Virus record (IMG/VR): IMGVR_UViG_3300008110_000901
Span: 1-31,755 of that record
From: a virus
DNA length: 31,755 bases
Direction: 5' to 3' (one strand)
Below, one piece after another: positions 2,724 to 26,886 of this stretch (the first letter of the stretch is position 1; every line of letters begins with the position of its first letter). The translations under genes were made by a program, and so were the position numbers. The notes beneath the pieces were generated by a model. It saw only the letters and a program-made list of their open reading frames with translations, was not told the origin of the DNA and searched no databases.

Positions 2724-5642
2724 ATGTCTAATTGTAGTCCAAAGAAAGAAAGGAAAGAAGCTACAGCAACGTTTACTTATACTCCCCCAGCAACTGAGGG
2801 TAATCCATTTCCTCAGCCTGTTACATTATCCTTTACTTACATTGATAAGTTTTGGCATGAGATTCGACCACCTAGCAATACTAGGAAGACTATACAGAAT
2901 GGTCAGAAGAAGCCAAAGCTTAGAACAAGCTACATCGCCGTTCCTAGTGGTGAGACTGCAGACGGTGAAGTAACTTTTACCAACCAGGAGTACACTCAAC
3001 AGGAATATGAGTATGATCCTGCTACAGGTATTTCTAAGCCTGTCTATGAGCGTCAGTGCATAGCAGAGATTTCTTATGATGAAAAGTACTTTTACCATAT
3101 CATTGAGTGGCCCACCAGTCACACTATGGAAACCAGAGCAGTTGGTGGCTTTACTAAAACATCTACGACAAGTACAAGCTCTGGACAAGGTGGTGCAGCA
3201 ACTACTACTACTGTAGATACCTATGCTGTAGAGTCTTCTAACGTATCTGCTAACTTTAGTCTTGCTAAAGTAGACAGTGAAGTAACTGGACTACCTGATG
3301 GTAGCGTTGCTTATCATGGTGGTACTGATGATAACAAAATCTTCTTTACATACAACAGCAACTCTGATACTGTCATTGCAGTTGGTGATGTTGTAAATGG
3401 TTGGACCGTAAATAAAGTTGTAAACTATAGTACAGTCTATACAGGTGGTGATCAGTCATATTACATCACCAAAAAGATTAGAAAGAGAGTTTCTAGAACT
3501 TCAAAGAAGAATGAGAGTCCATCATTCATTTACATTAACAATAACTCTGCCAATAACAGTGTTGGAGTTGTTTCTGTAGGTGATGTTGTAAATGGTAAAG
3601 GCATCAGTAAAGGAACTACAGTTACAGCAATTGATGGTAATAAAATTACTTTATCAAAGCCATTAACTTCTAGAAAAGTCAGAGAAGCTCTATTTAAAAA
3701 GACTACAGTAGCAAATAAGGTAAATGAAACAACAGTTTGCTATGCAGAGATCTCTGGTGGAAGTTCTAACTTTACTGCAGATCAAACTTATACCGCAACT
3801 GGTTCTGGAGCATCCATTAAAGTTATTTCTGGTAAGGGAATTATTAACCGCTCTGCTGTGGTTGGTTGTTACATAAGCAAAGACAAAAAAGAGTTTAGAT
3901 ATACTCCGTTGTTTTATTCTAAGGATAATGATTGTTCTCCAACCATTACATCTGATGAATACTCTGAGTATGTTCTTGGTGATATTATTCTCAGTGATGG
4001 TTCTGAGCTATTAGCTTCTAAACTACTTGTCACCAGACCTAAGACTAACTTAGCATATAATATCAATAACATCTATTGGGCAAATCTGAATAGACCTGTT
4101 GATCAAGATAGTCTAAAGAAATGGATCTCTAAGTTTAACAATAATATTCTTGAACTAGAGAAGACGATTGTTCAGCACGAAACTGCAGTTATGGGATCTA
4201 AAAAGGTTTCCCGAGCTGTAGACTCTGAGTGTGGTAATAATCTCTATCAGGAATATACTAAAGTCTATTATCCAGATCAAGAAATCAAAGCATTTAATGA
4301 TGGTATTTCTACATTCCAACAAGAAGTATCTCAGGATCCTTGTACAGATGTTAAATCTCCTGATGCCTATACTAAAGATGAGATTGCTAATATCATTACT
4401 TCTAACATTTCTGGTCTGACCTCACTTTCTTCTATTCGTCTACCAGAAGAAATGTTCAAGCAGATTGTATCTAATCCAGATTCATTGCAGAATATGCTTC
4501 TCAACGCATTAGATACGATTGGTGCATCTGTTCCAACTAAAACTACTATTCCAAACCTTCCACCACAAATTGAAGGTGATAACAAGTCTAGTCAAGTCTT
4601 TAGTACCGAAGAAGTAACAAGAATTCCTCCAAGAATGAAATCTCTTGAGTATCTTGTTGATGATCTATCATTCTTCAGTGATGTAGAACTTACTCCTTCT
4701 GCAAGTGGTAATATCTTTACCTTTACCATTAAGTCTATTCCAAGGTGGACTGGTAATGCAAGCTGCTCTGGACAAACTGGAGCTGATATTAGTCCTGCAG
4801 GAACTGGTCTACGTATTGTTACAAACAAAACAGGTGGGTATGTAGATAGCATCACAGCAAGTGCTGCATCTTTCAATGCAGATTCCAGCATTACAAATCC
4901 ACTTTTCCCATTAAATCCAACCACCACAACTAAAACATGGGTTGGCGGTTCTCCTTATCCTTCTACTGTATGGCAAGGTGCAGGTACAAACTACCAGCAA
5001 GACTTTGAAAAAACAGTAGAATTTAGATTTAATGAAGTTACAGAGTATGTAACTGAGTCAATTAGAACAAAAGGTAGTCCATTTGTGGATTCTCCAATCT
5101 ATGCTCAGCTATCTACAGCACTTGGAACCACCGATACTACCATTAAAGTGAACTCTACAGATGGATTCTTATCCTCTGGATACTTAATTATTCCAAAATT
5201 TATCATAAAACTAGAGAAAAATCCAGAAACCAAGAATGTAAACACCAATCATTACTATCTTGGCGAAGAAATTATCTATTATCGTCGTAAAACAGCTACA
5301 GAATTCCAGCAATGCACCCGTGCAATGTTTGATAGTACGTCCACTTTTGAGATGTCAGTCAATTCTGGCAAGATTGAGAAGGGCGTAACCTATATAATTA
5401 AGACTTTGGGATCTGTGAATTGGCAAAGTTATGGTGCTCCAGATGGAGCAAAGGTAGGAACTATCTTTACTGCTGAGATAGATGGTCCTCAAACCACTGA
5501 ATCTGGAGAAGTTACACTCTTTGAAAGCACTCTTATACCATTTGAAAGTGCTCCAGATGTCAATCAGGTGGCTCATAGCTATGAAAAACGTAGTTATTTG
5601 ACCCAATATTGGCCAGTCCGAGTTCAAAACAAATCCGTATGA
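2724..5642 (+). CDS. Large virion structural protein, baseplate-associated (972 aa)
   Basis: This 972-residue protein has no T4 namesake that I can name, but it is built from modules common in phage tail proteins and lies directly upstream of the PAAR tip and gp25 genes. Two copies of a VGDVVNG module occur at about residues 218 and 284; their DNA shares a 17-base direct repeat (3384-3400 and 3579-3595). At about 800-868 is a 'GFLSSGYLIIP ... GEEIIYYRRKTATEFQQCTRA' module also seen in neighbouring giant proteins, and at about 885-925 a GVTYIIKTLGSVNWQSYGAP module known from other phage tail proteins. Ser/Thr-rich linkers (about 145-165) separate domains. The C-terminal end overlaps the next start by ATGA, so the two are co-translated. 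A baseplate or spike-proximal role is inferred from position. Confidence 0.8.
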   Translation: MSNCSPKKERKEATATFTYTPPATEGNPFPQPVTLSFTYIDKFWHEIRPPSNTRKTIQNGQKKPKLRTSYIAVPSGETADGEVTFTNQEYTQQEYEYDPATGISKPVYERQCIAEISYDEKYFYHIIEWPTSHTMETRAVGGFTKTSTTSTSSGQGGAATTTTVDTYAVESSNVSANFSLAKVDSEVTGLPDGSVAYHGGTDDNKIFFTYNSNSDTVIAVGDVVNGWTVNKVVNYSTVYTGGDQSYYITKKIRKRVSRTSKKNESPSFIYINNNSANNSVGVVSVGDVVNGKGISKGTTVTAIDGNKITLSKPLTSRKVREALFKKTTVANKVNETTVCYAEISGGSSNFTADQTYTATGSGASIKVISGKGIINRSAVVGCYISKDKKEFRYTPLFYSKDNDCSPTITSDEYSEYVLGDIILSDGSELLASKLLVTRPKTNLAYNINNIYWANLNRPVDQDSLKKWISKFNNNILELEKTIVQHETAVMGSKKVSRAVDSECGNNLYQEYTKVYYPDQEIKAFNDGISTFQQEVSQDPCTDVKSPDAYTKDEIANIITSNISGLTSLSSIRLPEEMFKQIVSNPDSLQNMLLNALDTIGASVPTKTTIPNLPPQIEGDNKSSQVFSTEEVTRIPPRMKSLEYLVDDLSFFSDVELTPSASGNIFTFTIKSIPRWTGNASCSGQTGADISPAGTGLRIVTNKTGGYVDSITASAASFNADSSITNPLFPLNPTTTTKTWVGGSPYPSTVWQGAGTNYQQDFEKTVEFRFNEVTEYVTESIRTKGSPFVDSPIYAQLSTALGTTDTTIKVNSTDGFLSSGYLIIPKFIIKLEKNPETKNVNTNHYYLGEEIIYYRRKTATEFQQCTRAMFDSTSTFEMSVNSGKIEKGVTYIIKTLGSVNWQSYGAPDGAKVGTIFTAEIDGPQTTESGEVTLFESTLIPFESAPDVNQVAHSYEKRSYLTQYWPVRVQNKSV

Positions 5643-6811: not shown

Positions 6812-9004
6812 ATGGAATTACCTACTATCTCTGCTTTAGAATTTTCTCAAATCAGAGAATCCATCAAAAATTACATCAAAACTAAGACAGATTTCAAAGA
6901 CTACGACTTTGAAGGCTCTAACTTGTCCATGCTTGTGGACATTTTAGCGTATAATAGCATGTATTCGTCATATAACGTCAATATGGCGGCGAATGAGCTA
7001 AATCTTGACACCTCTGTTCTTCGTGACAATGTAGTTTCTCATGCAAAGAGACTAGGTTATACTCCAAATTCATATACTTCAGCAAGAATTGAGTTTAATA
7101 TTACAGCAAACAATATTTCTCAGTATCAGAGCATCTATATTCCAGCAGGTCCACTATTTTCAGTAACTCAAAATAATAAAACTTATACATTTATTACTAG
7201 AGACAGATATATTTTAAACACTCAAGGTGTATCTAGTGCAACGTTTACAAATATTGAAGTTAAAGAAGGACAAGAGTTTTCAATCAGATATACAGTAGAC
7301 GATAGTAACGAAAACCAAAGATTTTTTGTACCTAATAATTTTGTAGACGCAGATTCTATTAAAATTTCTGTAATTTCAGATCCTGCGACAAACTTAGAAG
7401 TAGAGTACGAGAAGAAAACTAGTATTGTTGGTGTTGGTCCATCAGACAAGATTTTCTTCGTAGAAGAAGTTCAGGATCAGAAGTACGAAATTATTTTTGG
7501 CGATGATGTTATTGGAAGAAAATTACAGAATGGAGAAGTTATCATCATTCGTTATGTAATTACATCTGGTTCTACAGCAAATGATATTGCAGGGTCTCAG
7601 TTAAAGTTTGTTGGGACTGTAAAGGGTGTCAACAATGGCGTAGAGACCACAATTGGAGCTGTTAATATTACATCAACTCCACTATCTACTAAAACTGATG
7701 GTGGCTCAGAGTTTGAACCAATCAAATCAATTAAATACAGGGCTCCAAGGTATTACGCTTCACAACAAAGAGCTGTAGTAAATAATGACTATGAGAGCAT
7801 TCTTCAAAATATTTACGCTAATGCTGATTTAGTCCGAGTTGTTGGCGGGGAGACCAAATCTCCACCAGAATATGGCAAAGTTTTTATCTCAATCCAGCCT
7901 AAAGTAGGAAGTAAGATCTCTCCAGTAGAGAAAAGACGTATTGTAGATGAAATTAAGACTTATACTGTAGGTTCTATTACCCCAGTAATTGAAGATGCAA
8001 TTCCATTTACCATTCTATTAAATGTCAATGTAATTTATGACAAAAATAGAACCAAAAATGATCCCGCATCATTAACTAGTTTGGTAAATGAAACAATTTC
8101 AAATTATAATCTAGATGATGAATTTAAAAACTTCAATGGTATATTCTCATCATCTAAGTTAATTTGCAGCATTCGTGATATTGATTCAGCTATCAAATTT
8201 GTAGTTCTAAAACCTCTCTTCATGAGAACTGTAGAATTATTTGATAACCTATCATATGAATATAAACTAGATTTCTACTCAAAAATTAAAAATAACACTG
8301 AAGACAAATATACAATGATTAGTGATCCTTTCTGCATCAAAGGATTCAATGAACCAGTATTTTTAGCAGCATTTAGTGATAAATTTGCATCATATAACGT
8401 AAATGATTGTAGTCAAAGAGAAAACGCAGACATTTATCTATTAACTCTAAAAGAGAGAGTTGTAGCAAAGGTAGGAAAAATCAATTATGAGACTGGAGAA
8501 CTCAATTTTACAGTAGTTGCATGTCAAGATGCCCCAATAAATATTTACGTAGTTCCAGATAGTCCAGATATTACAACGGGTTCAGACACTTATCCTAACA
8601 TTGAAGTAACTGATGTAAATCCTCTTGACGTGACCGAATACTCAAATGATGATTTAAGTACAGAAGCAATTGTTCCAAGAACATTTACGTCCACAACATC
8701 ATCTGGCGATCCTTTAGGATCAAATCCAATTAATGACGTACCAGGAAGCACAACCGTAAATCCAGATGGCAGTGTTACTACTGTAGATGATGATGGAACT
8801 GCCACAACGACTAATCCTGATGGATCTACCACAGTCGAGGAACCAACAACTGCAACTGATGAGTGTGAAAAGCTATATGCCAAGATTTCTGCCCAAGGTT
8901 TTGCAGATAATGCAACTCTACAGGCTCTTGCAACACTAGGTTGTCCCCCTCCTGATACTGATATCGAAGACTTTACACCAATAAATCCAGATACCTGCTC
9001 ATGA
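6812..9004 (+). CDS. gp6: Baseplate wedge subunit gp6 (baseplate J-like)
   Basis: This 730-residue protein is the gp6 homologue (T4 gp6: 660 aa), whose dimers form the inner iris of the baseplate. The N-terminus (KTKTDFKDYDFEGSNLSMLV, then DILAYNSMYSSYNVNMAANE and LDTSVLRDNVVSHAKRLGYT, residues about 23-89) is the family hallmark, followed by a beta-rich J-like core with GGSEFEPIKSIKYRAPRYYA (about 296-315) and VFISIQPKVGSKISPVEKRR (about 355). The last 150 residues are extra: a Thr/Asp-rich linker with NPDGS repeats (about 649-680) and a short C-terminal domain with four Cys. Start ATG 6812 is three bases after gp25; the stop overlaps the next start by ATGA. Confidence 0.95.
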   Translation: MELPTISALEFSQIRESIKNYIKTKTDFKDYDFEGSNLSMLVDILAYNSMYSSYNVNMAANELNLDTSVLRDNVVSHAKRLGYTPNSYTSARIEFNITANNISQYQSIYIPAGPLFSVTQNNKTYTFITRDRYILNTQGVSSATFTNIEVKEGQEFSIRYTVDDSNENQRFFVPNNFVDADSIKISVISDPATNLEVEYEKKTSIVGVGPSDKIFFVEEVQDQKYEIIFGDDVIGRKLQNGEVIIIRYVITSGSTANDIAGSQLKFVGTVKGVNNGVETTIGAVNITSTPLSTKTDGGSEFEPIKSIKYRAPRYYASQQRAVVNNDYESILQNIYANADLVRVVGGETKSPPEYGKVFISIQPKVGSKISPVEKRRIVDEIKTYTVGSITPVIEDAIPFTILLNVNVIYDKNRTKNDPASLTSLVNETISNYNLDDEFKNFNGIFSSSKLICSIRDIDSAIKFVVLKPLFMRTVELFDNLSYEYKLDFYSKIKNNTEDKYTMISDPFCIKGFNEPVFLAAFSDKFASYNVNDCSQRENADIYLLTLKERVVAKVGKINYETGELNFTVVACQDAPINIYVVPDSPDITTGSDTYPNIEVTDVNPLDVTEYSNDDLSTEAIVPRTFTSTTSSGDPLGSNPINDVPGSTTVNPDGSVTTVDDDGTATTTNPDGSTTVEEPTTATDECEKLYAKISAQGFADNATLQALATLGCPPPDTDIEDFTPINPDTCS

Positions 9005-12000
9005 CAACTTTAGACCAAAAAATTGTTGACACTTCAGTATTAATTGAGAAGCAACTTCCGTCATTTGTAAGGGAATCTAATCAAAAGTTTATATCTTTCC
9101 TAACCTCTTATTATGAATCGCAAGAGGTTAAATATAATTCTTTAGATATTGTAGAGAACTTAATTGATTATTACAATATTGGATACTATACTCCTAGCAA
9201 GCTAGTTGAGTATACTACAGTAATGTCTTTGGTTTCTGCTGATGCAACTACGATTACTGTATTGAGCACTATTGGATTTCCAGAATCTAATGGATATATT
9301 CAAATTGGCGATGAAATAATTTTCTATAAATCAAAAACAAAAACTCAGTTTGTAGATTGTGTACGTGCAACTGGGGCGTTTGTTCTTGACAAAATTCCAA
9401 CATCAGAAGTAGTATATAAAAAGAGCAAAGAAGCATCAAGTTATATTCCCGAAACTAAAGTATATAATATTTCATATCAGTTTGTTACTGAATTTTTTGA
9501 TAGAATTAAGTCTGAAATCTCTCCAACATTACCAGAGACTTTAGCACCAGAATTAAATATATCATCTTTCCTAAAAAATATCAGTTCTTTTTATCGTGCA
9601 AAAGGAACTGAAAATTCACATAAACTACTCTTTAGAATCTTATTTAATGAGAGGAGAGTAAAGTTAAAATTAAAGTCAAGTGGTACTGGAGCAGTAATTG
9701 ATATTCTAAACTATTCTGGAGATATCAGTTCTTTCCAAATTTCTTCTGCTGGAAGTGGTTATTATTACGAACTACCAACTAATGGTGGACCTTTGGTTGC
9801 TCCACCTGTAATCGACATCATTGGTTCTGGAACTGGAGCAGTGAACCCAGTGACTTCTATTGCTTCAAAGAGAGCTGAAATGGTTGTTACTGGAATGAAT
9901 TCTTCTGGTGGCATTACTGCTGTTCAAGTTGCAAACAAAGGATCTGGATATATTGGTCCTATTACTGCAAGAGTTAGAGAGAGAATTTTCGACCAAGATC
10001 AGATCGTCAACTGCCTAGATTCAAATAATAACGTTATTGGTAGGGGGAAAGTCTATAGTTGGAGCGATTCCTCCCGAGAGCTTATTTTATATGAAATTAC
10101 TGGGTATTTTAAGGCCAATTCAAAGCTTATTGGAGTGGGTGGCGAGAGCCCTCGCTCTATAATTTCTGCTGCATATCCAGTAACTACTCTAAACAAAGAG
10201 GGCAACCCATCAATTGAGATTATTCCAAATGAAGTTAGAGTAGAGAGACCTAAAGAGAATGTAATTCGACCATCTTCATCTTCATTCTATGAAAGACGAA
10301 TTGTTCGTTGCGAATTAATTTCTGGAGCCCAAAATTTAGATAATGTAAAGCTACTAGAGTTAGTCCAAAGCAGAGACTTGTCATATGAAATTCCTGGAGT
10401 AGTGTTAGAAATAACAGAGATTCAAAAGCTACAGGATAATTTATACGAATTTGAAATCGGAGATAATTTAAAGTACAATAAATTATTTTTGCCACCATCT
10501 ACAGTAGTAACTCAAACTTCTACATTAACATCAAATACACTTGCAACAGTTACTACCACCAATGCTAAAAATTTCCCTACAAGAAATGGAAAATTATACA
10601 TCAATGGTAGAATAGTAGAATATCAATCAAGAAATGATACTCAGTTTTTAAGCTGTAGAATAATTTCAGGAACATCTCCATTAGTAGTTCAAAATAAAGA
10701 TAATGCATATCTTTATGGAAGAACTTGTATTACTTCTGGAAGTGTAAATTATTTTCTAAATGGATATATTAATGGAGATAGAAGCTTAACTCCTATTGTG
10801 TTCAAAATTATTGGTGTTCCATCTGAGATTAAAATTTCTAATGGAGGAGCTTTATATTCATCATCATTATTTAAATTTGCTACTGATACTACAGATTCAA
10901 TTTTAACTGGTAAATTATACAATTTTGGTTCAGTTGATCAAATAATTATAGAAAACGTTGGTCAAGGATATAAAGTAAATGATAGAGTTATAGTAAATAA
11001 CGAATTTACTTCTGGAAGTGGATTTTCAGCATATGTTTCAGAAATTTCAGGTGTTAATATATCATCCTATCAATTTGTAACTCAATTAGATCAACAGCTA
11101 ATAAAAATTACAACCACACAGAATCATAATCTCGCTCAAAACGATGTTGTACTTTTTGCCAACTCTCAAATTGGCAGGAAAAAGGTATTTTCAGTAGATT
11201 CCAGCACTCAATTTTCAATTCCTTGCCCAGTAGGATTTGTCACTCAAAATTTAACCTTAACATATACAACTACTTCAAGAGGAGCATCAGGTTCTATTGT
11301 AAAGATTTTAATTTCAAATAAAGGCAATAACTATAAAAAACTCCCAGAAGTAGTTGGTGTGCAATCTGAAAATGGATATGGTGCATTGCTCCAACTAAAC
11401 TCTTCTACTATTGGAAGACTATCATCTATTAGATGTGAATCCATTTATGGTGAACTAATTGGTGATCGAAAAGCTCAGTTTAATGTAAAGTTTCCATCTA
11501 CTGCAAAACTTAAAAATAATTATCAAATTGCTAGAATTGATGTCATCTCTGGCGGAAATAATTATAGACCAACTGATAAAGTCAAAGTAAATGGTGTCGT
11601 TGACAATAATTATCAATTTAAAATTATAACTTCATCTGGTGTTATCACAGCAATTGAAGTAATTTATGGTGGCAATAATTTAAATGCTATTCCAACAATC
11701 ACTATTCAAAGTGATTATGGAACTGGAGCACAACTAGAAGCAAAATTAGCAAGAAAATTACTATTTAAAAATGATACTTTAAATTTTGGTTCTTATTCTT
11801 CCCCAACGGGAACAGCCAAGGTAATCAATTTTGATGCTCAAACATCAACCTTAGAGTTTGAACTTGTATCAGGAGCTATCAATGAAAATGATACAATTTA
11901 CTTTGCAAACAATGTAGTATATGGTCAGATATTTTCTATTAAATCTGCATCTGCATATGCTACAACATCACCATATGTTTCATTCCCATTCAAGTTTTTA

Positions 12001-12591
12001 GACAACTATGGTTTCCTGAATGACTCTTCTCAGAGAATTCATGATAGTGATTATTATCAAGATTGGTCATATACTATTGCGTCTACAAAAAATACTCTTG
12101 AGTGGCGTAATGAAGTAATTGCAAATACTCATCCATCAGGCTTCAAGCTATTTGGCAAAAATTTAATTGAAAACCAGAAGCCACTATTTAAAAGCCAACA
12201 AGACGTATTTAACAGCTCTGTAATATTTAAAGCCACTTTATCAAATCTTCTAAACTTAAATATAAAATTAAGTGACTGCAAGACTCAAAAAGTACTAATT
12301 GAGAACTATGCTGCATATGCAGTTGGAGATTTTGTATATGGAAATATTTCTGGAGCAACAGGTATTGTAAAAGATATCTCTGAAAGTTACATAGAAATTT
12401 TATTACTCGGAACCTCCTCATTTGTAGTAGGTGAGTACATTTTTGAGGTTTCAAGAGATTTTGCAGCTTTTGGTAATCATGAAAGCAATACTCTATTCAC
12501 CTTTTATTCTGGCATTTTACAAAAACCAGTTGATTCATATTATGTTTCAAACAATAATTGGGTCCGCAGAGAAACTATTAATTTCAGTTAA
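9001..12591 (+). CDS. Giant baseplate protein in gp7 position, N-terminal part (1196 aa)
   Basis: The 1196-residue frame starts with ATGA overlapping the gp6 stop. Its N-terminus (VLIEKQLPSFVRESNQKFIS then FLTSYYES) is typical of the large gp7-position wedge proteins of T4-like cyanophages; it is longer than and only distantly like T4 gp7 (1032 aa). At about 78-124 and 513-563 it has a 'GYIQIGDEIIFY ... FVDCVRATG' module. Several G-x-G-Y/G-N-N-Y beta repeats occur at about 250, 310, 650, 770, 848 and 886. The end (about 1090-1196) holds 'VGDFVYGNISGATGIVKD' and then FYSGILQKPVDSYYVSNN, which looks like the first unit of the repeat array that fills the next frame. The frame stops at TAA 12589, and the array continues in a +1-shifted frame: probably one gene broken by an extra G at 12560-12562. 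Confidence 0.85.
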   Translation: MTTLDQKIVDTSVLIEKQLPSFVRESNQKFISFLTSYYESQEVKYNSLDIVENLIDYYNIGYYTPSKLVEYTTVMSLVSADATTITVLSTIGFPESNGYIQIGDEIIFYKSKTKTQFVDCVRATGAFVLDKIPTSEVVYKKSKEASSYIPETKVYNISYQFVTEFFDRIKSEISPTLPETLAPELNISSFLKNISSFYRAKGTENSHKLLFRILFNERRVKLKLKSSGTGAVIDILNYSGDISSFQISSAGSGYYYELPTNGGPLVAPPVIDIIGSGTGAVNPVTSIASKRAEMVVTGMNSSGGITAVQVANKGSGYIGPITARVRERIFDQDQIVNCLDSNNNVIGRGKVYSWSDSSRELILYEITGYFKANSKLIGVGGESPRSIISAAYPVTTLNKEGNPSIEIIPNEVRVERPKENVIRPSSSSFYERRIVRCELISGAQNLDNVKLLELVQSRDLSYEIPGVVLEITEIQKLQDNLYEFEIGDNLKYNKLFLPPSTVVTQTSTLTSNTLATVTTTNAKNFPTRNGKLYINGRIVEYQSRNDTQFLSCRIISGTSPLVVQNKDNAYLYGRTCITSGSVNYFLNGYINGDRSLTPIVFKIIGVPSEIKISNGGALYSSSLFKFATDTTDSILTGKLYNFGSVDQIIIENVGQGYKVNDRVIVNNEFTSGSGFSAYVSEISGVNISSYQFVTQLDQQLIKITTTQNHNLAQNDVVLFANSQIGRKKVFSVDSSTQFSIPCPVGFVTQNLTLTYTTTSRGASGSIVKILISNKGNNYKKLPEVVGVQSENGYGALLQLNSSTIGRLSSIRCESIYGELIGDRKAQFNVKFPSTAKLKNNYQIARIDVISGGNNYRPTDKVKVNGVVDNNYQFKIITSSGVITAIEVIYGGNNLNAIPTITIQSDYGTGAQLEAKLARKLLFKNDTLNFGSYSSPTGTAKVINFDAQTSTLEFELVSGAINENDTIYFANNVVYGQIFSIKSASAYATTSPYVSFPFKFLDNYGFLNDSSQRIHDSDYYQDWSYTIASTKNTLEWRNEVIANTHPSGFKLFGKNLIENQKPLFKSQQDVFNSSVIFKATLSNLLNLNIKLSDCKTQKVLIENYAAYAVGDFVYGNISGATGIVKDISESYIEILLLGTSSFVVGEYIFEVSRDFAAFGNHESNTLFTFYSGILQKPVDSYYVSNNNWVRRETINFS

Positions 12592-15500
12592 TGGTGTTGT
12601 GCAAAATCCAACATATACTTTATCTGGAAATATTGTAACACTGAGCACTGCACTTTCCACATCCGACACTATTTTTGTATTATATCAGCAAAATTTAAGA
12701 GTATTAACTCTATCTGGCTCTGGTACAAATTATACTATAAACTATACCCCAAGTTCTAGTTGCAATTTACTACTGTTTGCTAATTCTGTATACCAATCAC
12801 AACTCTTAACTGATTTCTCTATCGTCGGTAATCAGGTATCTCTCTCAGAATCTGTAAATTCATCAAGTATCTTTGGTTGGTATATTGACGAGACAGTTAC
12901 ATGTTATCTTCTCAATGTCTCTACCCTCAGTGCAAACAAGATTCTAGATGTTAATAATTGCGAAGTTAAAAAATTAACTCAATATATTGAATCAAATGTA
13001 GTAAAAACCCCAGAGTCTTTATATCAAATAACCAAAGATCTTTTAGATGGAACTGTCTATGCAGATCCAGATAATACTACTGTATATGGATTTGATAGCA
13101 GATTTACCTATACAAATCCAGAATATTCAAGTAGTTATGTAGAAGTATTAAACGAAATAACTTTTAATGGATCTACAACAACATTTAATCTACGTTATAC
13201 CGATGGGCTTCCATATGCACCAGTAAATGGAAAAAATACTTTACTTGTATATGTTAATAATCAAGTTGTAGATCAAGATCAATATACAATTTCAGGATCT
13301 ACAATTACATTTAACCAGGCATATAGTGCATCTGCAAAGTGTACAATTATTGATTTCAATAGCAAATACTTAGCCAATAATACTTCTTCTAAATCAGCTA
13401 ATTTAGATAGATTAAATGTAGTTCAAAATGGAACTAGAAAAACATTTAACCTATCTGATAAAGGTGTACCACAATATGTTAAAAATGTAGGTGATCTATT
13501 TGTAATTAAAAATGGAAATCTTAGAAGACCAGAAACTCAAGAACATTCTATCTCTTCCAATAAAATTACATTTGTCACTGCTCCAACTACAAATGATAAT
13601 ATTAAATTATGTTATTTTAACAGACAACTAGAACCAGAGAAAACTAAAAATGTAATTCTTGATTCCTTTATTTGTTTCAACGGAGTAAGAGCAACATTCC
13701 CAATTTCTTTAGATGGAATTTTGTTTGCTCCAATTACTGAGCATCATTTATTTGTAGTTAGAAACAGTGTATATCAAAAGCCAACTATTGATTATACTAT
13801 TTCTGGCACAAATATTACATTTACAACCGCTCCTCTCTATGGAGAAGAGGTTTCCGTTTATTATTCATATGATGGATTAACTCAAAACTTTAAATTTGAT
13901 GATTTGAGGATGTATACTGGCAGTCAGTCAACATTCTCTTTGACTAAAAATTATATTAGCACTACAGTGTATAGTGCTAGCCACTTACAAGTAGTCAGAA
14001 ACGGAGTATATCAATATCCTGGTATTGATTATAGCGTTGGCGGAGTTTCTGATTCTAGGTACATTAATTTTGTAACTGCACCAACAAATTCAGATGATAT
14101 CAGCATCGTAAATTATAAATCTGAAGATTTAGTTGATGTTACTAATAGATTTACTCAAATTAACACAACTTCTCTACAATATACTTCTCAAGCACCTGCA
14201 ATTGATACTTCTGTATTCTTAATCTATGTAAATGGCATTCTTCAGGTTGGTAATTCATGGAGTTTTAATACTACTACTAATGTATTAACTTTCCAAGGTT
14301 TTGTAAGTCTTTCTCTCGATAAAGTACAAGTTTTAGCATTCAAGACTGCAAAGAGAATACTAGATCCTATTACTATTGTTTCTGGAACAACCACTTACAA
14401 TTTACAAGTTAATAATTCTACCATAACAACAAGTCTTCCAACAAATAGTTCAGACTTACTAGTAAGCGTCAATGGAGTCCAGCAGCTACCAATTTCTGCG
14501 TACACTGTTTCTGGATCTACTATCACATTTATTGATTCAAATCTTCCTGTAGGCGGCTCTGTTTACATCTATCAAATTGGATCATCCACTTTTGATACTG
14601 AAGTTATTGATTATATTAATGATAATTATGCAAAATCAACATATAAACTACAAGTAAACTACAAGAGTTTTAATCCTCCAGCATCTTCTGACATTTTTGT
14701 ATTGAGAAATGGAGTTCTACAGAATCCTGGCGAAGACTTTATTGCTGGAAATGGATATATCACATTCACCACAAATATTACTGGTGCAGATGATGTATAC
14801 TTAGGATATCGTCATGGCACTACAGAAATTGCAATTAACAGCGTAAGTGGAACTACAGTAACACTGGCTACATCAATTCCATCCTCTCAATACAAAGATT
14901 TAGTTCTTCATATCAATGGAGTTCCTCAATTCTATGGAACTAACTTTACTATTTCTGGAAATGTCGTAACATTATCTTCTTCAGTTCAAATTGATTCAAT
15001 TTTTGCAATTAAATATGTTCCAATAACTTTTATAGATCCTATCGAAGATTGTCCAAATTCAATCAGAACTAAATTTAGATTATTCTATAATGCTCAAAAT
15101 TTAATTATTGCAAACATTTTGCAAGATGCAGATATTCTAGTGTCTGTAAATGGAATTATTCAATACCCAGGAGTTCAATATACAATATCTCCAAATAGAG
15201 GAATCATTGAATTCTTAACTCCTCCACAATTCACTGATCAAATTTTCATGGTTAGGATGAGTGGAAATGAAGTGGTTAATCTTACTTCTGTTTCTGGTTC
15301 AAATACTGTATATAATCTAAGTCAATCAATTCCAACACAGAGACAGGAAAATCTAGTAGTATTTTCAAACAATGCATGGAAATTTAATGAACTAGGAGAA
15401 TATACTTATAACACCACATCAAGAATTACTCTAGCAGCTGCAAATACATCAACATACGTGTTTGGCATTAAATTTGCTGGAATATTCCATCTATTAGATC

Positions 15501-16882
15501 AAATTAATACACCATATAATGGATCCAATATTAAATTTAACCTATTCTTAAACCAGGAAAACTTTATGCCTCCTGGAACAATCGAGAATGATGTAATCCC
15601 ATCTGAATCTAGTTTGGTTGTTGTTAAAAATGGTAAAATTCTGGATCCTGGAGTAGAATACACACTTCAGGGAGATATCAAGAGTCAAATTCAATTCTCA
15701 GTTGCTCCAATTTCAACTGATGTAATTTCAGTGAAGTGTGTCGGATCTTTCTTAAAACTTCTATCTATTACTTCTGGATTTGGCGGAAAAACCTACAGTC
15801 TTAAAAAACAAGACAATACTGCATATTATCCAAATGCAGGCATTAATCGTCCAAGATCCTATGAGAATCAAATTCTCGTAATTAAAGATGGAAACATTCA
15901 AAGCCCACTCTATGATTACTATGTTGACAACGACAAATTAATCTTTAACAATAACTTAACCGCATCAAAATTAGTCATTCTTGATTTTAGAGGTACTAAG
16001 TCAGATGTAAACATTGATAGTGTTTCATATCAAGTTAACGCTGGAGATAGAATTAAAATTGATGGTGAGCAGAATGAAAGAATTGTTTCTGAAGTAATAT
16101 CTCCAACAGTCTTAAAAACAATTTCTTATGCTGGATCTAAGCCTTCTGGTTTTACTGGAACTGCTACCACATCTAGTGGCAAATTAACAGCAATTACTGT
16201 AACAAATGGCGGAAAAGGATACAAATACCCAGTTGTTCTCAGAACTTCTGGAAGTGGTCATGGAGCAAAAGCAACTGCATCAGTAAATAATACTCTTGGT
16301 GGTGCAATCCAAGCTCCAATTCTAATTCAATATCCTGGTTATAATCAATACGTAACTCAGAATGTAATCCCAACATCATATGCATACGCACAGAAGAGAA
16401 CTCAGTTAAGTACTTCAAATGTAAAAATTGGAACTAAGTTAACTGCAAATATTAACTCCACCACTGAGGTTATTCCTCTTGCAAATGCACAAAACTTTGA
16501 GCAAAGTGATGCTGTAGTTAATATTACATCCTCTACTGGATCTGGAGCTACATTTAGAGCGTTTATAAGTAATGGAAGAGTTAGAAAAGTAGAAGTTCTA
16601 ACTCCAGGAATTGGTTATGATGATAGAGACGCCGAGATTACCATCACTGGCGGTGGCGGAAGTGGTTGCGTTCTAGAAACAATTCTTGATAGTATGGGTA
16701 GAGTTACCTCTGTTGTTGTTAGAAATTCTGGAGAGGGATATGATGTGTTTAGAGTAATTATTGATAGGGATATAATTGAATATACTAATATTGTTTCAAA
16801 TCAATTAGTGGGATGTACCAGATTACCATCTTCACTTGCCCACAACCAAGATGACATCGTATATTATGACAAATTTATATAA
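12542..16882 (+). CDS. Giant baseplate protein, C-terminal part (VNG-repeat protein)
   Basis: From about 12560 this frame encodes a beta-repeat protein. I count 14 units of the form 'LLVSVNGVxQxPxxxYTxSGxxITFxxAPxxxDxIxVxY', then a C-terminal region with three G-x-G-Y repeats (GGKGYKYP, PGIGYDDRD, SGEGYDVF) and a last half-module 'DRDIIEYTNIVSNQLVGCTR'. Repeats of this kind build elongated beta rods. The start is doubtful: ATG 12542 (1446 aa) lies inside the preceding gene, has no Shine-Dalgarno, and the first residues up to about 12565 look non-coding; ATG 12479 and GTG 12431 are less likely. The TAATG at 12589 opens a different frame that stops after 15 codons. Fusion to the upstream frame through removal of one base gives a 2626-residue protein with repeats running across the joint. 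Late promoter AATAAATA overlaps its stop. Confidence 0.8.
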   Translation: MFQTIIGSAEKLLISVNGVVQNPTYTLSGNIVTLSTALSTSDTIFVLYQQNLRVLTLSGSGTNYTINYTPSSSCNLLLFANSVYQSQLLTDFSIVGNQVSLSESVNSSSIFGWYIDETVTCYLLNVSTLSANKILDVNNCEVKKLTQYIESNVVKTPESLYQITKDLLDGTVYADPDNTTVYGFDSRFTYTNPEYSSSYVEVLNEITFNGSTTTFNLRYTDGLPYAPVNGKNTLLVYVNNQVVDQDQYTISGSTITFNQAYSASAKCTIIDFNSKYLANNTSSKSANLDRLNVVQNGTRKTFNLSDKGVPQYVKNVGDLFVIKNGNLRRPETQEHSISSNKITFVTAPTTNDNIKLCYFNRQLEPEKTKNVILDSFICFNGVRATFPISLDGILFAPITEHHLFVVRNSVYQKPTIDYTISGTNITFTTAPLYGEEVSVYYSYDGLTQNFKFDDLRMYTGSQSTFSLTKNYISTTVYSASHLQVVRNGVYQYPGIDYSVGGVSDSRYINFVTAPTNSDDISIVNYKSEDLVDVTNRFTQINTTSLQYTSQAPAIDTSVFLIYVNGILQVGNSWSFNTTTNVLTFQGFVSLSLDKVQVLAFKTAKRILDPITIVSGTTTYNLQVNNSTITTSLPTNSSDLLVSVNGVQQLPISAYTVSGSTITFIDSNLPVGGSVYIYQIGSSTFDTEVIDYINDNYAKSTYKLQVNYKSFNPPASSDIFVLRNGVLQNPGEDFIAGNGYITFTTNITGADDVYLGYRHGTTEIAINSVSGTTVTLATSIPSSQYKDLVLHINGVPQFYGTNFTISGNVVTLSSSVQIDSIFAIKYVPITFIDPIEDCPNSIRTKFRLFYNAQNLIIANILQDADILVSVNGIIQYPGVQYTISPNRGIIEFLTPPQFTDQIFMVRMSGNEVVNLTSVSGSNTVYNLSQSIPTQRQENLVVFSNNAWKFNELGEYTYNTTSRITLAAANTSTYVFGIKFAGIFHLLDQINTPYNGSNIKFNLFLNQENFMPPGTIENDVIPSESSLVVVKNGKILDPGVEYTLQGDIKSQIQFSVAPISTDVISVKCVGSFLKLLSITSGFGGKTYSLKKQDNTAYYPNAGINRPRSYENQILVIKDGNIQSPLYDYYVDNDKLIFNNNLTASKLVILDFRGTKSDVNIDSVSYQVNAGDRIKIDGEQNERIVSEVISPTVLKTISYAGSKPSGFTGTATTSSGKLTAITVTNGGKGYKYPVVLRTSGSGHGAKATASVNNTLGGAIQAPILIQYPGYNQYVTQNVIPTSYAYAQKRTQLSTSNVKIGTKLTANINSTTEVIPLANAQNFEQSDAVVNITSSTGSGATFRAFISNGRVRKVEVLTPGIGYDDRDAEITITGGGGSGCVLETILDSMGRVTSVVVRNSGEGYDVFRVIIDRDIIEYTNIVSNQLVGCTRLPSSLAHNQDDIVYYDKFI

Positions 16883-24879: not shown

Positions 24880-25113
24880 ATGGATAAACTAATGGTTGAT
24901 GGGCACCCAGGTCTTTATAGAGATATGAAAAGTGGTGCCATTGTAAATGATAACTCTTATGAGTATGAGTCTTATATGAAACAGTATCAAGCAAGACAAC
25001 ATAAATCATATAGAGTAGATAAAATTGAAGAAGATTTGAATAATCTCAAATCAGAAATTGGTGAAATTAAATCTTTGCTTTTACAATTAAATGGACGAAT
25101 TACCTCTGGCTAA
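24880..25113 (+). CDS. Small coiled-coil protein (77 aa)
   Basis: ATG 24880 begins one base after the stop of the giant gene; a longer in-frame TTG start at 24793 would lie deep in that gene and is rejected. The 77-residue protein starts with MDKLMVDGHPGLYRDMKSGA, a segment I recall from small conserved cyanophage proteins next to structural genes. A Tyr-rich middle (YEYESYMKQYQARQHKSY) leads into a C-terminal heptad-like helix (DKIEEDLNNLKSEIGEIKS, then LLLQLNGR) that should form a coiled coil. It may be a virion accessory or assembly factor; function is unknown. The following gene starts inside its 3' end, overlapping by 23 bases. Confidence 0.75.
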   Translation: MDKLMVDGHPGLYRDMKSGAIVNDNSYEYESYMKQYQARQHKSYRVDKIEEDLNNLKSEIGEIKSLLLQLNGRITSG

Positions 25114-25249
25114 GCAGTTTGCGCTTCAAAAAATTTATAATGACATCGACACATTGAATGAAGAGCAGGCTAAAAAGATAGCAAAAGACTTTGCTAGATT
25201 ATATTATACTCATCAGCATGTTGCCATGAATATGCTTCTAAAAAAATAG
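25091..25249 (+). CDS. NblA-like small protein (52 aa, candidate)
   Basis: ATG 25091 to TAG 25247-25249 encodes 52 residues. The protein has the plan of NblA, the small protein that triggers phycobilisome breakdown in cyanobacteria and is also found in some cyanophages: LPLAKQFALQKIYNDIDTL resembles the 'L-x-L-x-x-Q-F' first helix, EEQAKKIAKDFARLYY the 'EQA ... LY' second helix, and it ends MNMLLKK. NblA proteins are about 50-65 aa, two antiparallel helices. Similarity is judged by eye and short helical proteins match easily, so an unrelated structural accessory protein is possible. It overlaps the preceding coiled-coil gene by 23 bases in another frame and is followed nine bases later by a hairpin. 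No clear Shine-Dalgarno is visible. Confidence 0.6.
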   Translation: MDELPLAKQFALQKIYNDIDTLNEEQAKKIAKDFARLYYTHQHVAMNMLLKK

Positions 25250-25257
25250 AAAGAAAA

Positions 25258-25286
25258 AGGTCTCCTTATAAATACTAGGGAGACCT
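25258..25286 (+). terminator. Hairpin holding a late promoter in its loop
   Basis: AGGTCTCC (25258-25265) pairs perfectly with GGAGACCT (25279-25286); the 13-base loop contains TATAAATA. The stem is followed by CTCTATATAAATATTTTT, T-rich only from 25300. It may end the transcript of the giant gene unit. Confidence 0.55.
25267..25274 (+). promoter_or_regulatory. Consensus T4 late promoter, upstream of a tandem pair
   Basis: TATAAATA is a perfect match to the T4 late promoter. It lies within the loop of the hairpin at 25258-25286 and 32 bases before the ATG at 25307, giving a predicted start near 25280. Confidence 0.7.
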
Positions 25287-25291
25287 CTCTA

Positions 25292-25299
25292 TATAAATA
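25292..25299 (+). promoter_or_regulatory. Consensus T4 late promoter, downstream of a tandem pair
   Basis: A second perfect TATAAATA, 25 bases after the first and only seven bases before the ATG at 25307. A start 6-7 bases downstream would produce a nearly leaderless message for the 110-aa gene, so this copy may be less used or give leaderless translation. Confidence 0.5.
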
Positions 25300-25306
25300 T
25301 TTTTAA

Positions 25307-25639
25307 ATGGCAGCTGTAAAAAATCTGTATATTGACCAGGGCTCTGATTTCAACGCTCAAATTACAATTTATGATGACAACAATGCTCCCTGGGATTTGA
25401 CTGGATACACTGGTCAAGCTAAAATAAGGAAATCTTATTATAGCACAAATTATGTAAATTTTACAGTATCTTTTCCTGTTATCAGAACTACTGGAACTGT
25501 TATTCTTGATTTAACTTCTGCACAAACTTCTTTATTAGAACAAGGCAGATACTTATATGATGTAGTACTTACCAATTCTTCTGGTAAAAAAACTAGAGTT
25601 ATAGAGGGAATTGTTACTATCAATCCTGGAGTAACATGA
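25307..25639 (+). CDS. Conserved virion-associated protein (110 aa)
   Basis: The 110-residue protein starts MAAVKNLYIDQGSDFNAQI and continues with DLTGYTGQAKIRKSYYSTN, TGTVILDLTSAQTSLLEQGR, YLYDVVLTNSSGKKTRVIEG and a PGVT end. This plan (a beta sandwich with 'DLTGYT ... IRKS ... LEQGRYxYDV ... RVIEGxVxxxPGVT') recurs in T4-like cyanophages next to tail-fibre genes and resembles the N-terminal baseplate-binding domain of some fibre and receptor-binding proteins; the exact role is unknown. Two late promoters precede the ATG. The stop overlaps the next start by ATGA, so both proteins are likely made together. Confidence 0.8.
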   Translation: MAAVKNLYIDQGSDFNAQITIYDDNNAPWDLTGYTGQAKIRKSYYSTNYVNFTVSFPVIRTTGTVILDLTSAQTSLLEQGRYLYDVVLTNSSGKKTRVIEGIVTINPGVT

Positions 25640-25860: not shown

Positions 25861-26886
25861 ATGGCAACTATCATTAAAATTAAAAGATCCTCTGGAACTG
25901 GACAACCAAACCTTGGACAAGGTGAATTAGGTTATTCCTGGGGTACAGTGACCTATACCGATGCTCAGAGTGCTACGGTAACATCTTATGGTAAGATGTA
26001 CCTAGGCACTGGCACTGAGTCTGGAGGTATTGCAGCCAATATTGAAGTTATTGGCGGTAAATACTTCACTGACATGCTAGATCATGGGCATGGAACACTG
26101 ACTGCCAACTCTGCACTGATTGTAGACTCATCAAAGAGAATTAACGAGTTTTACGTTGATAATTTAGGATTTGATGGGAATACAATTTCCTCAACCAATA
26201 CTGATGGAGATATTAACCTAGATCCAAACGGTGCTGGAGAAGTAGTAATTCCAGATGATACTTATCTAACATTTGGAACCAGCAAAGATACAAAAATTAA
26301 ATATGATGAAGCCACTGATGACCGTCTAGAGGTCACAGGTGCAGATTGGAACTTTGCGAATGGCGTTGCAATTAGCATTAGCGATAATACCCCATCATCT
26401 TCAACTACAACTGGTGCTCTAACAGTTGCGGGTGGTGTTGGTATTGGAGAAGATCTATATGTTGCAGGTTCTGCATATGTAGGATCACTTGCAGCTCCTT
26501 CAGACTTCACCATTTCTGGAGATCTAACTGTCCAGGGTGGAGATATCAATTTAACCCAAGTAGCTACAAATATTAATCTAAAAGATAATACTGTAGATGC
26601 TCTTGCAATCAAAGAAGGAACAAACGTTTATCTTGACATTACAACAACTGATAACGCTGAGAAAATTACTCTTGGTAATTCTCTAGCTTCTGTAGATGTT
26701 GTAGTTGAAGACAACGTTAGTGGGGCATTTATAGTAGCTCAAGGAGCAAATCAATATATTGCTGTTGATACAACTAACGAAGCAGAGCTACTAGTTTTAG
26801 GTAACTCAATAGCTGCAGTAAGAACAGTAGTTCAAGATGCAGATGCAAATGCATATTCTGTAAAAGAAGGTAGGGTGGTGATCTAA
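25861..26886 (+). CDS. Tail-fibre-like repeat protein, N-terminal part (341 aa)
   Basis: The frame begins with MATIIKIKRSSGTGQPNLGQ and GELGYSWGT, the standard start of cyanophage fibre-like structural proteins. After a 'MLDHGHGTLTANSALIVDSS' segment come Gly/Asp/Thr-rich beta repeats (GDINLDPNGAGEVVIPDDTY near 120-140; TTGALTVAGGVGIGEDLYVA near 180-200) typical of trimeric fibres. The frame ends 'AYSVKEGRVVI' at TAA 26884-26886. In the -1 frame the same bases read GGDLTTNQTTFNL and continue seamlessly into the 54-residue repeats, which have no start codon of their own. The gene therefore appears split by a missing base near the GGG at 26873-26875; one added base yields a 799-residue protein ending at 28259. 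Confidence 0.85.
   Translation: MATIIKIKRSSGTGQPNLGQGELGYSWGTVTYTDAQSATVTSYGKMYLGTGTESGGIAANIEVIGGKYFTDMLDHGHGTLTANSALIVDSSKRINEFYVDNLGFDGNTISSTNTDGDINLDPNGAGEVVIPDDTYLTFGTSKDTKIKYDEATDDRLEVTGADWNFANGVAISISDNTPSSSTTTGALTVAGGVGIGEDLYVAGSAYVGSLAAPSDFTISGDLTVQGGDINLTQVATNINLKDNTVDALAIKEGTNVYLDITTTDNAEKITLGNSLASVDVVVEDNVSGAFIVAQGANQYIAVDTTNEAELLVLGNSIAAVRTVVQDADANAYSVKEGRVVI

Follow-up and report, generated by a model that had tools for sequence, protein, structure and literature searches.

A putative NblA-superfamily protein encoded in the tail-gene block of T4-like cyanophages

The window analyzed in this study (the whole 31,755-nt stretch of IMG/VR record IMGVR_UViG_3300008110_000901) spans a gene block of a T4-like cyanophage that runs from the baseplate to the terminase; PHROGs were matched for baseplate wedge subunits, for a head-tail adaptor and for the small subunit of terminase. 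Within this block, a small ORF with an ATG start codon is located between a gene for a virion structural protein and a gene resembling those for tail fiber assembly (Table 1). Its 52-aa product is MDELPLAKQFALQKIYNDIDTLNEEQAKKIAKDFARLYYTHQHVAMNMLLKK. The two motifs on which a preliminary description of this DNA based the proposal of an NblA homologue, L-x-L-x-x-Q-F and EQA...LY, are both present in the translation (L4-P-L6-A-K-Q9-F10 and E25-Q-A27...L37-Y38), and the 23-base overlap with the upstream neighbor that it reported is exact. This overlap likely provides translational coupling. The same description regarded the gene as hidden between structural genes and held that automated calling could miss it. 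The gene is not hidden, as relatives carry an annotated ORF at this place, mostly labeled ‘hypothetical protein’ in GenBank, but the records of phages Sf-CH5 and Sf-CH8 indeed have no annotation there. In Sf-CH8 (L032, PV340853.1) the family member lies at 2986-3156 with no gene annotated under it, and Sf-CH5 is alike.

Table 1. Features at the locus of the NblA-like ORF (positions refer to the window).
Feature	Position	Strand	Remarks
Upstream virion structural protein ORF, 77 aa	24880..25113	+	phrog_473 (E 4.5e-26); adjacent in 22/22 close relatives
Overlap of the NblA-like ORF with the upstream structural ORF, 23 nt	25091..25113	+	Start context and overlap kept in relatives
NblA-like ORF, 52 aa	25091..25249	+	PHROG 27081; AlphaFold helices 6-20 and 24-50
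11-bp hairpin	25258..25286	+	z -3.7; right after the NblA-like ORF
TATAAATA	25267-25274	+	T4-late-promoter-like; largely within the hairpin loop
Second TATAAATA	25292..25299	+	Immediately precedes the next gene
Downstream ORF, 110 aa, L-shaped tail fibre protein assembly-like	25307..25639	+	phrog_1084 / phrog_3304; kept in 22/22 close relatives

The ORF represents a real gene under purifying selection and no chance reading frame. Among 12 distinct sequences of the window clade (the window protein and its close relatives), the mean pN/pS outside the overlap is 0.135, with a Jukes-Cantor dN/dS of about 0.08, while the same DNA read in the two shifted frames gives a pN/pS of about 2-3. Variable columns in the ORF alignment are distributed over codon positions 1, 2 and 3 as 13, 7 and 38, respectively.

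The arrangement of hairpin and TATAAATA behind the gene is kept in many relatives of the window clade. This region possibly forms a boundary where a transcript ends, followed by a T4-type late promoter for the next gene. We infer this role from the arrangement, because TATAAATA by itself is not enriched in the window (three copies found vs. 4.2 expected). Two of the three window copies are those at or after the hairpin (25258-25299).

Two contigs, L004 and L005, are at least 99.9% identical to the window over the shared region. A psbA gene is present on the 121-kb contig of L005 (99.9% identical to the window) and also on the 172-kb contig of L021, and the hosts are therefore photosynthetic. 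CpeT was looked for on the relatives and not found. Two irregularities in the window itself were observed. Two long ORFs in different frames (9001-12591 and 12431-16882) share about 160 nt, and each of them matches phrog_2885 and phrog_701, which are PHROGs of long virion structural proteins; they may be a single gene interrupted by a frameshift or indel, or else two genes. At 26871/26872, inside a repetitive tail-fiber-like gene, both L004 and L005 carry 346 extra bases, and it is likely that a repeat was collapsed, or a deletion occurred, in the window.

PF04485 (NblA) is the top Pfam match of the 52-aa protein, and the alignment is full-length (residues 3-48 against positions 1-46 of the 50 in the model), but the score of 14.3 bits (E 0.06) stays below the curated cut-off of 25 bits. 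When PF04485 was run over the complete records of two longer relatives, of 80 kb and 172 kb, the syntenic ORF was the only match, also sub-threshold. PHROG 27081, for which the listed function is unknown, matches the protein far better (E 4.1e-7) and also captures 23/23 members of the family alignment. The best match is thus to another cyanophage family, yet one whose member in phage S-SCSM1 has been published as a predicted NblA. Querying phage records with the marine member Bellamy gp115 retrieved this S-SCSM1 protein (ORF237, QFG06501.1, whose annotation reads phycobilisome degradation protein) together with a protein of S-TIM5 and the ‘NblA’ of S-SCSM2R. The S-SCSM1 gene was predicted as nblA by HHpred and further homologues were reported in cyanomyoviruses, one of them in a freshwater phage (PMC9602691). 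PMC9602691 also credits an nblA prediction in S-TIM5 to Nadel et al. 2019 and does not name the locus; the S-TIM5 protein matched here is likely the same one.

The window protein and S-SCSM1 ORF237 share the match to PHROG 27081 and the pattern L..K.F...I..ID...LY..QQ with the cyanomyovirus NblA-like family. The window protein differs from the family proteins of the isolates in being only about 25-40% identical to them and in having a shorter N-terminus. From these sequence comparisons, it belongs with the cyanomyovirus NblA-like family as a distant homologue within the NblA superfamily, and not as a confirmed member of PF04485. The assignment of this family as NblA-like is already known, and the window protein is a new, diverged branch of it. 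We infer that the window clade is ‘freshwater-type’; the contig records shown state no habitat. An NCBIfam search found nothing, and neither a tblastn search with Anabaena NblA nor a nucleotide BLAST of the ORF gave a match in phages. Weak matches to IDH, SidC and AcrIIA15 were rejected as chance.

The link to cyanobacterial NblA was evaluated with a profile of 44 sequences from cyanobacterial genomes, which superseded an earlier three-sequence profile that gave only 10%. The window protein scores 12.4 bits against the 44-sequence profile, a value reached by two of 6900 shuffled family sequences, and no branch of the family scores closer to classical NblA than the window clade; marine members score like shuffles on the NblA HMM. 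In profile-profile comparison (hhalign), the window clade matches NblA with 71% and P 3.6e-5, mainly over helix 1, and the best of 150 column permutations reached 16.8 vs. 25.1 for the real comparison.

Stronger links run via intermediates. The first is formed by proteins from 13 other phage contigs (L411-L423), all of which (13/13) match PF04485. The window clade matches this phage group over its full length (94%, P 1e-7), and the group in turn matches NblA over its full length (95%, P 4e-8). Its proteins share MNDLP..KQ.T...AKQ...LY..QQ with the window clade, but are nearer to classical NblA and, unlike the genes of the window clade, are encoded among unrelated neighbors. A designation of this group as cyanopodovirus NblA was dropped after searches of isolates gave no confirmation; nothing in the isolate phage collection closely matches its members. 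The second link consists of two cyanobacterial sequences, G183 and G195. When 194 cyanobacterial genomes were scanned separately with PF04485 and with the family profile, both models hit these two places, in the same register. A close relative of the window protein (sequence identical to L013) alone finds G183 with 39% identity (E 3.2e-4), and PF04485 matches the same place with 22.7 bits. The contig of G195 (G195:C1) is an ordinary cyanobacterial contig, which was a further reason for dropping the cyanopodovirus label. The genes around the one for G183 gave no useful information. We should note that these intermediates were found by family or NblA searches and are hence no random sample; such selection does not account, however, for both models matching at one and the same place.

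In PDB sequence searches, neither the single protein nor a 23-member family profile retrieved NblA. A broader profile of 80 sequences gave Anabaena NblA as first match (E 0.0037), although this profile includes the PF04485-like phage group and is therefore not independent. A tree of 92 sequences, limited by the small number of columns, places NblA apart and the PF04485-like phage group beside a clade that unites the window family, marine phage proteins and homologues from small-genome cyanobacteria.

The predicted structure is in line with these links. The AlphaFold model (AF2, monomer prediction) has a mean pLDDT of 90 and two helices at the positions given in Table 1, compared with residues 9-23 and 27-55 in an Anabaena-type NblA modeled by the same method. 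With a three-residue offset that aligns the conserved phenylalanines, helix 1, the three-residue turn and the start of helix 2 coincide exactly in both models, and the protein is thus predicted to be a helix-turn-helix with the helix spacing of NblA. The likeness to cyanobacterial NblA (Anabaena, PDB 1OJH) extends to the length of the protein and to the positions of ELxLxxQF and QAK, which lie in ungapped register with 9/50 identical residues. A Foldseek search of the model against PDB and BFVD gave no match, but a control model of genuine NblA likewise failed to recover its PDB entry, and the negative result is therefore uninformative.

It is very improbable, in our judgment, that the similarity to NblA merely reflects chance between short helical proteins. 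The protein is indeed short and rich in helix, its Pfam score is sub-threshold and PHROG 27081 has no assigned function. Against this, reversed and column-permuted alignments score far below the real profile-profile comparisons, two intermediates match both models in register and the helix spacing is equal. Homology of the window protein to NblA is thus statistically supported at the level of sequence profiles, directly and more strongly via the intermediates. The homology proposed in the preliminary description holds as a distant one, whereas clean membership of PF04485 does not.

The position of the gene is strongly conserved in some clades. In the window clade it is always located in the tail-gene slot, with both neighbors kept in 22/22 IMG/VR loci that a search with the protein recovered (69-100% identity). 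Other family proteins occupy this slot too, flanked by the phrog_473 gene and the tail fiber assembly gene, as seen for Bellamy gp115, S-SM2_101 (T4-GC 1205) and S-SRM01 QPX48163, all annotated as hypothetical; they differ from the window protein in their greater length and weaker NblA signal. On the upstream side, the slot is kept in 73/73 Bellamy-type and 78/78 S-SRM01-type loci. This near-invariant position between structural genes in some clades counts against an NblA role and could mean a role in morphogenesis. Together with the 23-nt overlap with a structural gene, it would fit a small virion or tail-assembly protein in which the resemblance to NblA is an old fold reused or a product of convergence. 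We regard this explanation as improbable, since the family is also found outside structural blocks and the slot also occurs without it. The upstream neighbor is present in 362 phage records vs. 25 for the family, and has no family gene beside it in P-SSM2, S-CAM9, S-CRM01 and DSL-LC02. In S-SCSM1 the slot is empty and the family gene is located instead upstream of helicase and oxygenase genes, while in S-TIM5, S-B05 and S-SKS1 it lies among small non-structural genes; others are likewise placed outside structural blocks. In addition, the annotation of S-SCSM1 marks virion proteins but gives ORF237 no such tag, although a small protein can readily escape mass spectrometry, and cyanobacteria themselves encode homologues. 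The gene is optional and mobile and has host homologues, and therefore behaves as an accessory gene. This optional, moving placement favors an accessory host-takeover protein over a part of the tail.

NblA is an adaptor of ClpC of about 60 aa with a helix-loop-helix fold, which forms four-helix-bundle dimers and delivers phycobilisome proteins for degradation (PMC7966870). Expression of cyanophage nblA genes in Synechocystis or S. elongatus was reported to cause phycobilin loss (PMC9602691). We therefore favor, with moderate confidence, the reading that the ORF is an accessory gene of T4-like cyanophages for a divergent NblA-superfamily protein, most likely acting as NblA does late in infection. 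The small helix-turn-helix protein would bind host phycobiliprotein, presumably as a dimer, and hand it over to the host ClpC chaperone/protease by docking to ClpC, so that the antenna would be stripped during infection. Late synthesis is expected because the ORF is part of the tail/neck gene block and shares bases with a structural gene. The product would then be made at a stage when virion protein synthesis needs amino acids and the dying cell may capture more light than it is able to use.

Several features count against this reading, namely the unreached PF04485 cut-off, a direct link to NblA mainly over helix 1, the shuffle-like scores of marine members and the family signature LYxxQQ, which replaces the helix-2 pattern of classical NblA. 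The conserved difference in helix 2 also bears on the main alternative to NblA-like action, in which an NblA-fold proteolysis adaptor keeps the ClpC-docking mechanism and takes other host cargo, as paralogues in picocyanobacteria may do. The small cyanobacterial genomes G141 (L182-L186) and G191 (L187-L191) each encode five diverged NblA-like small proteins. Under the alternative, this set would suggest different targets. The phage family moreover groups more with such paralogues of small-genome cyanobacteria than with classical NblA. We consider this alternative unlikely, as the window clade is the very branch that scores closest to classical NblA. A wider proposal, which we offer tentatively and likewise hold to be doubtful, is that T4-like cyanophages and picocyanobacteria share a diversified family of NblA-fold adaptors with cargo beyond the phycobilisome, and that the phage copy, tied to late tail genes, would turn Clp proteolysis of the host toward other targets during virion assembly.

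The favored reading, an accessory protein acting like NblA, concerns a family (PHROG 27081) with hundreds of relatives in IMG/VR, where scans with two queries yielded 330 and 293 confirmed stretches. Our analysis ties this cyanophage family to NblA through sequences matching both. To what is already known, it adds a diverged branch closest in score to classical NblA, sequence bridges between the PHROG and NblA, the conserved late tail-gene slot and the optional nature of the gene. In several clades, the family gene rides within the late tail-gene block. If the protein is active, a gene now annotated as hypothetical would serve many cyanomyoviruses to strip the antenna or to redirect Clp.
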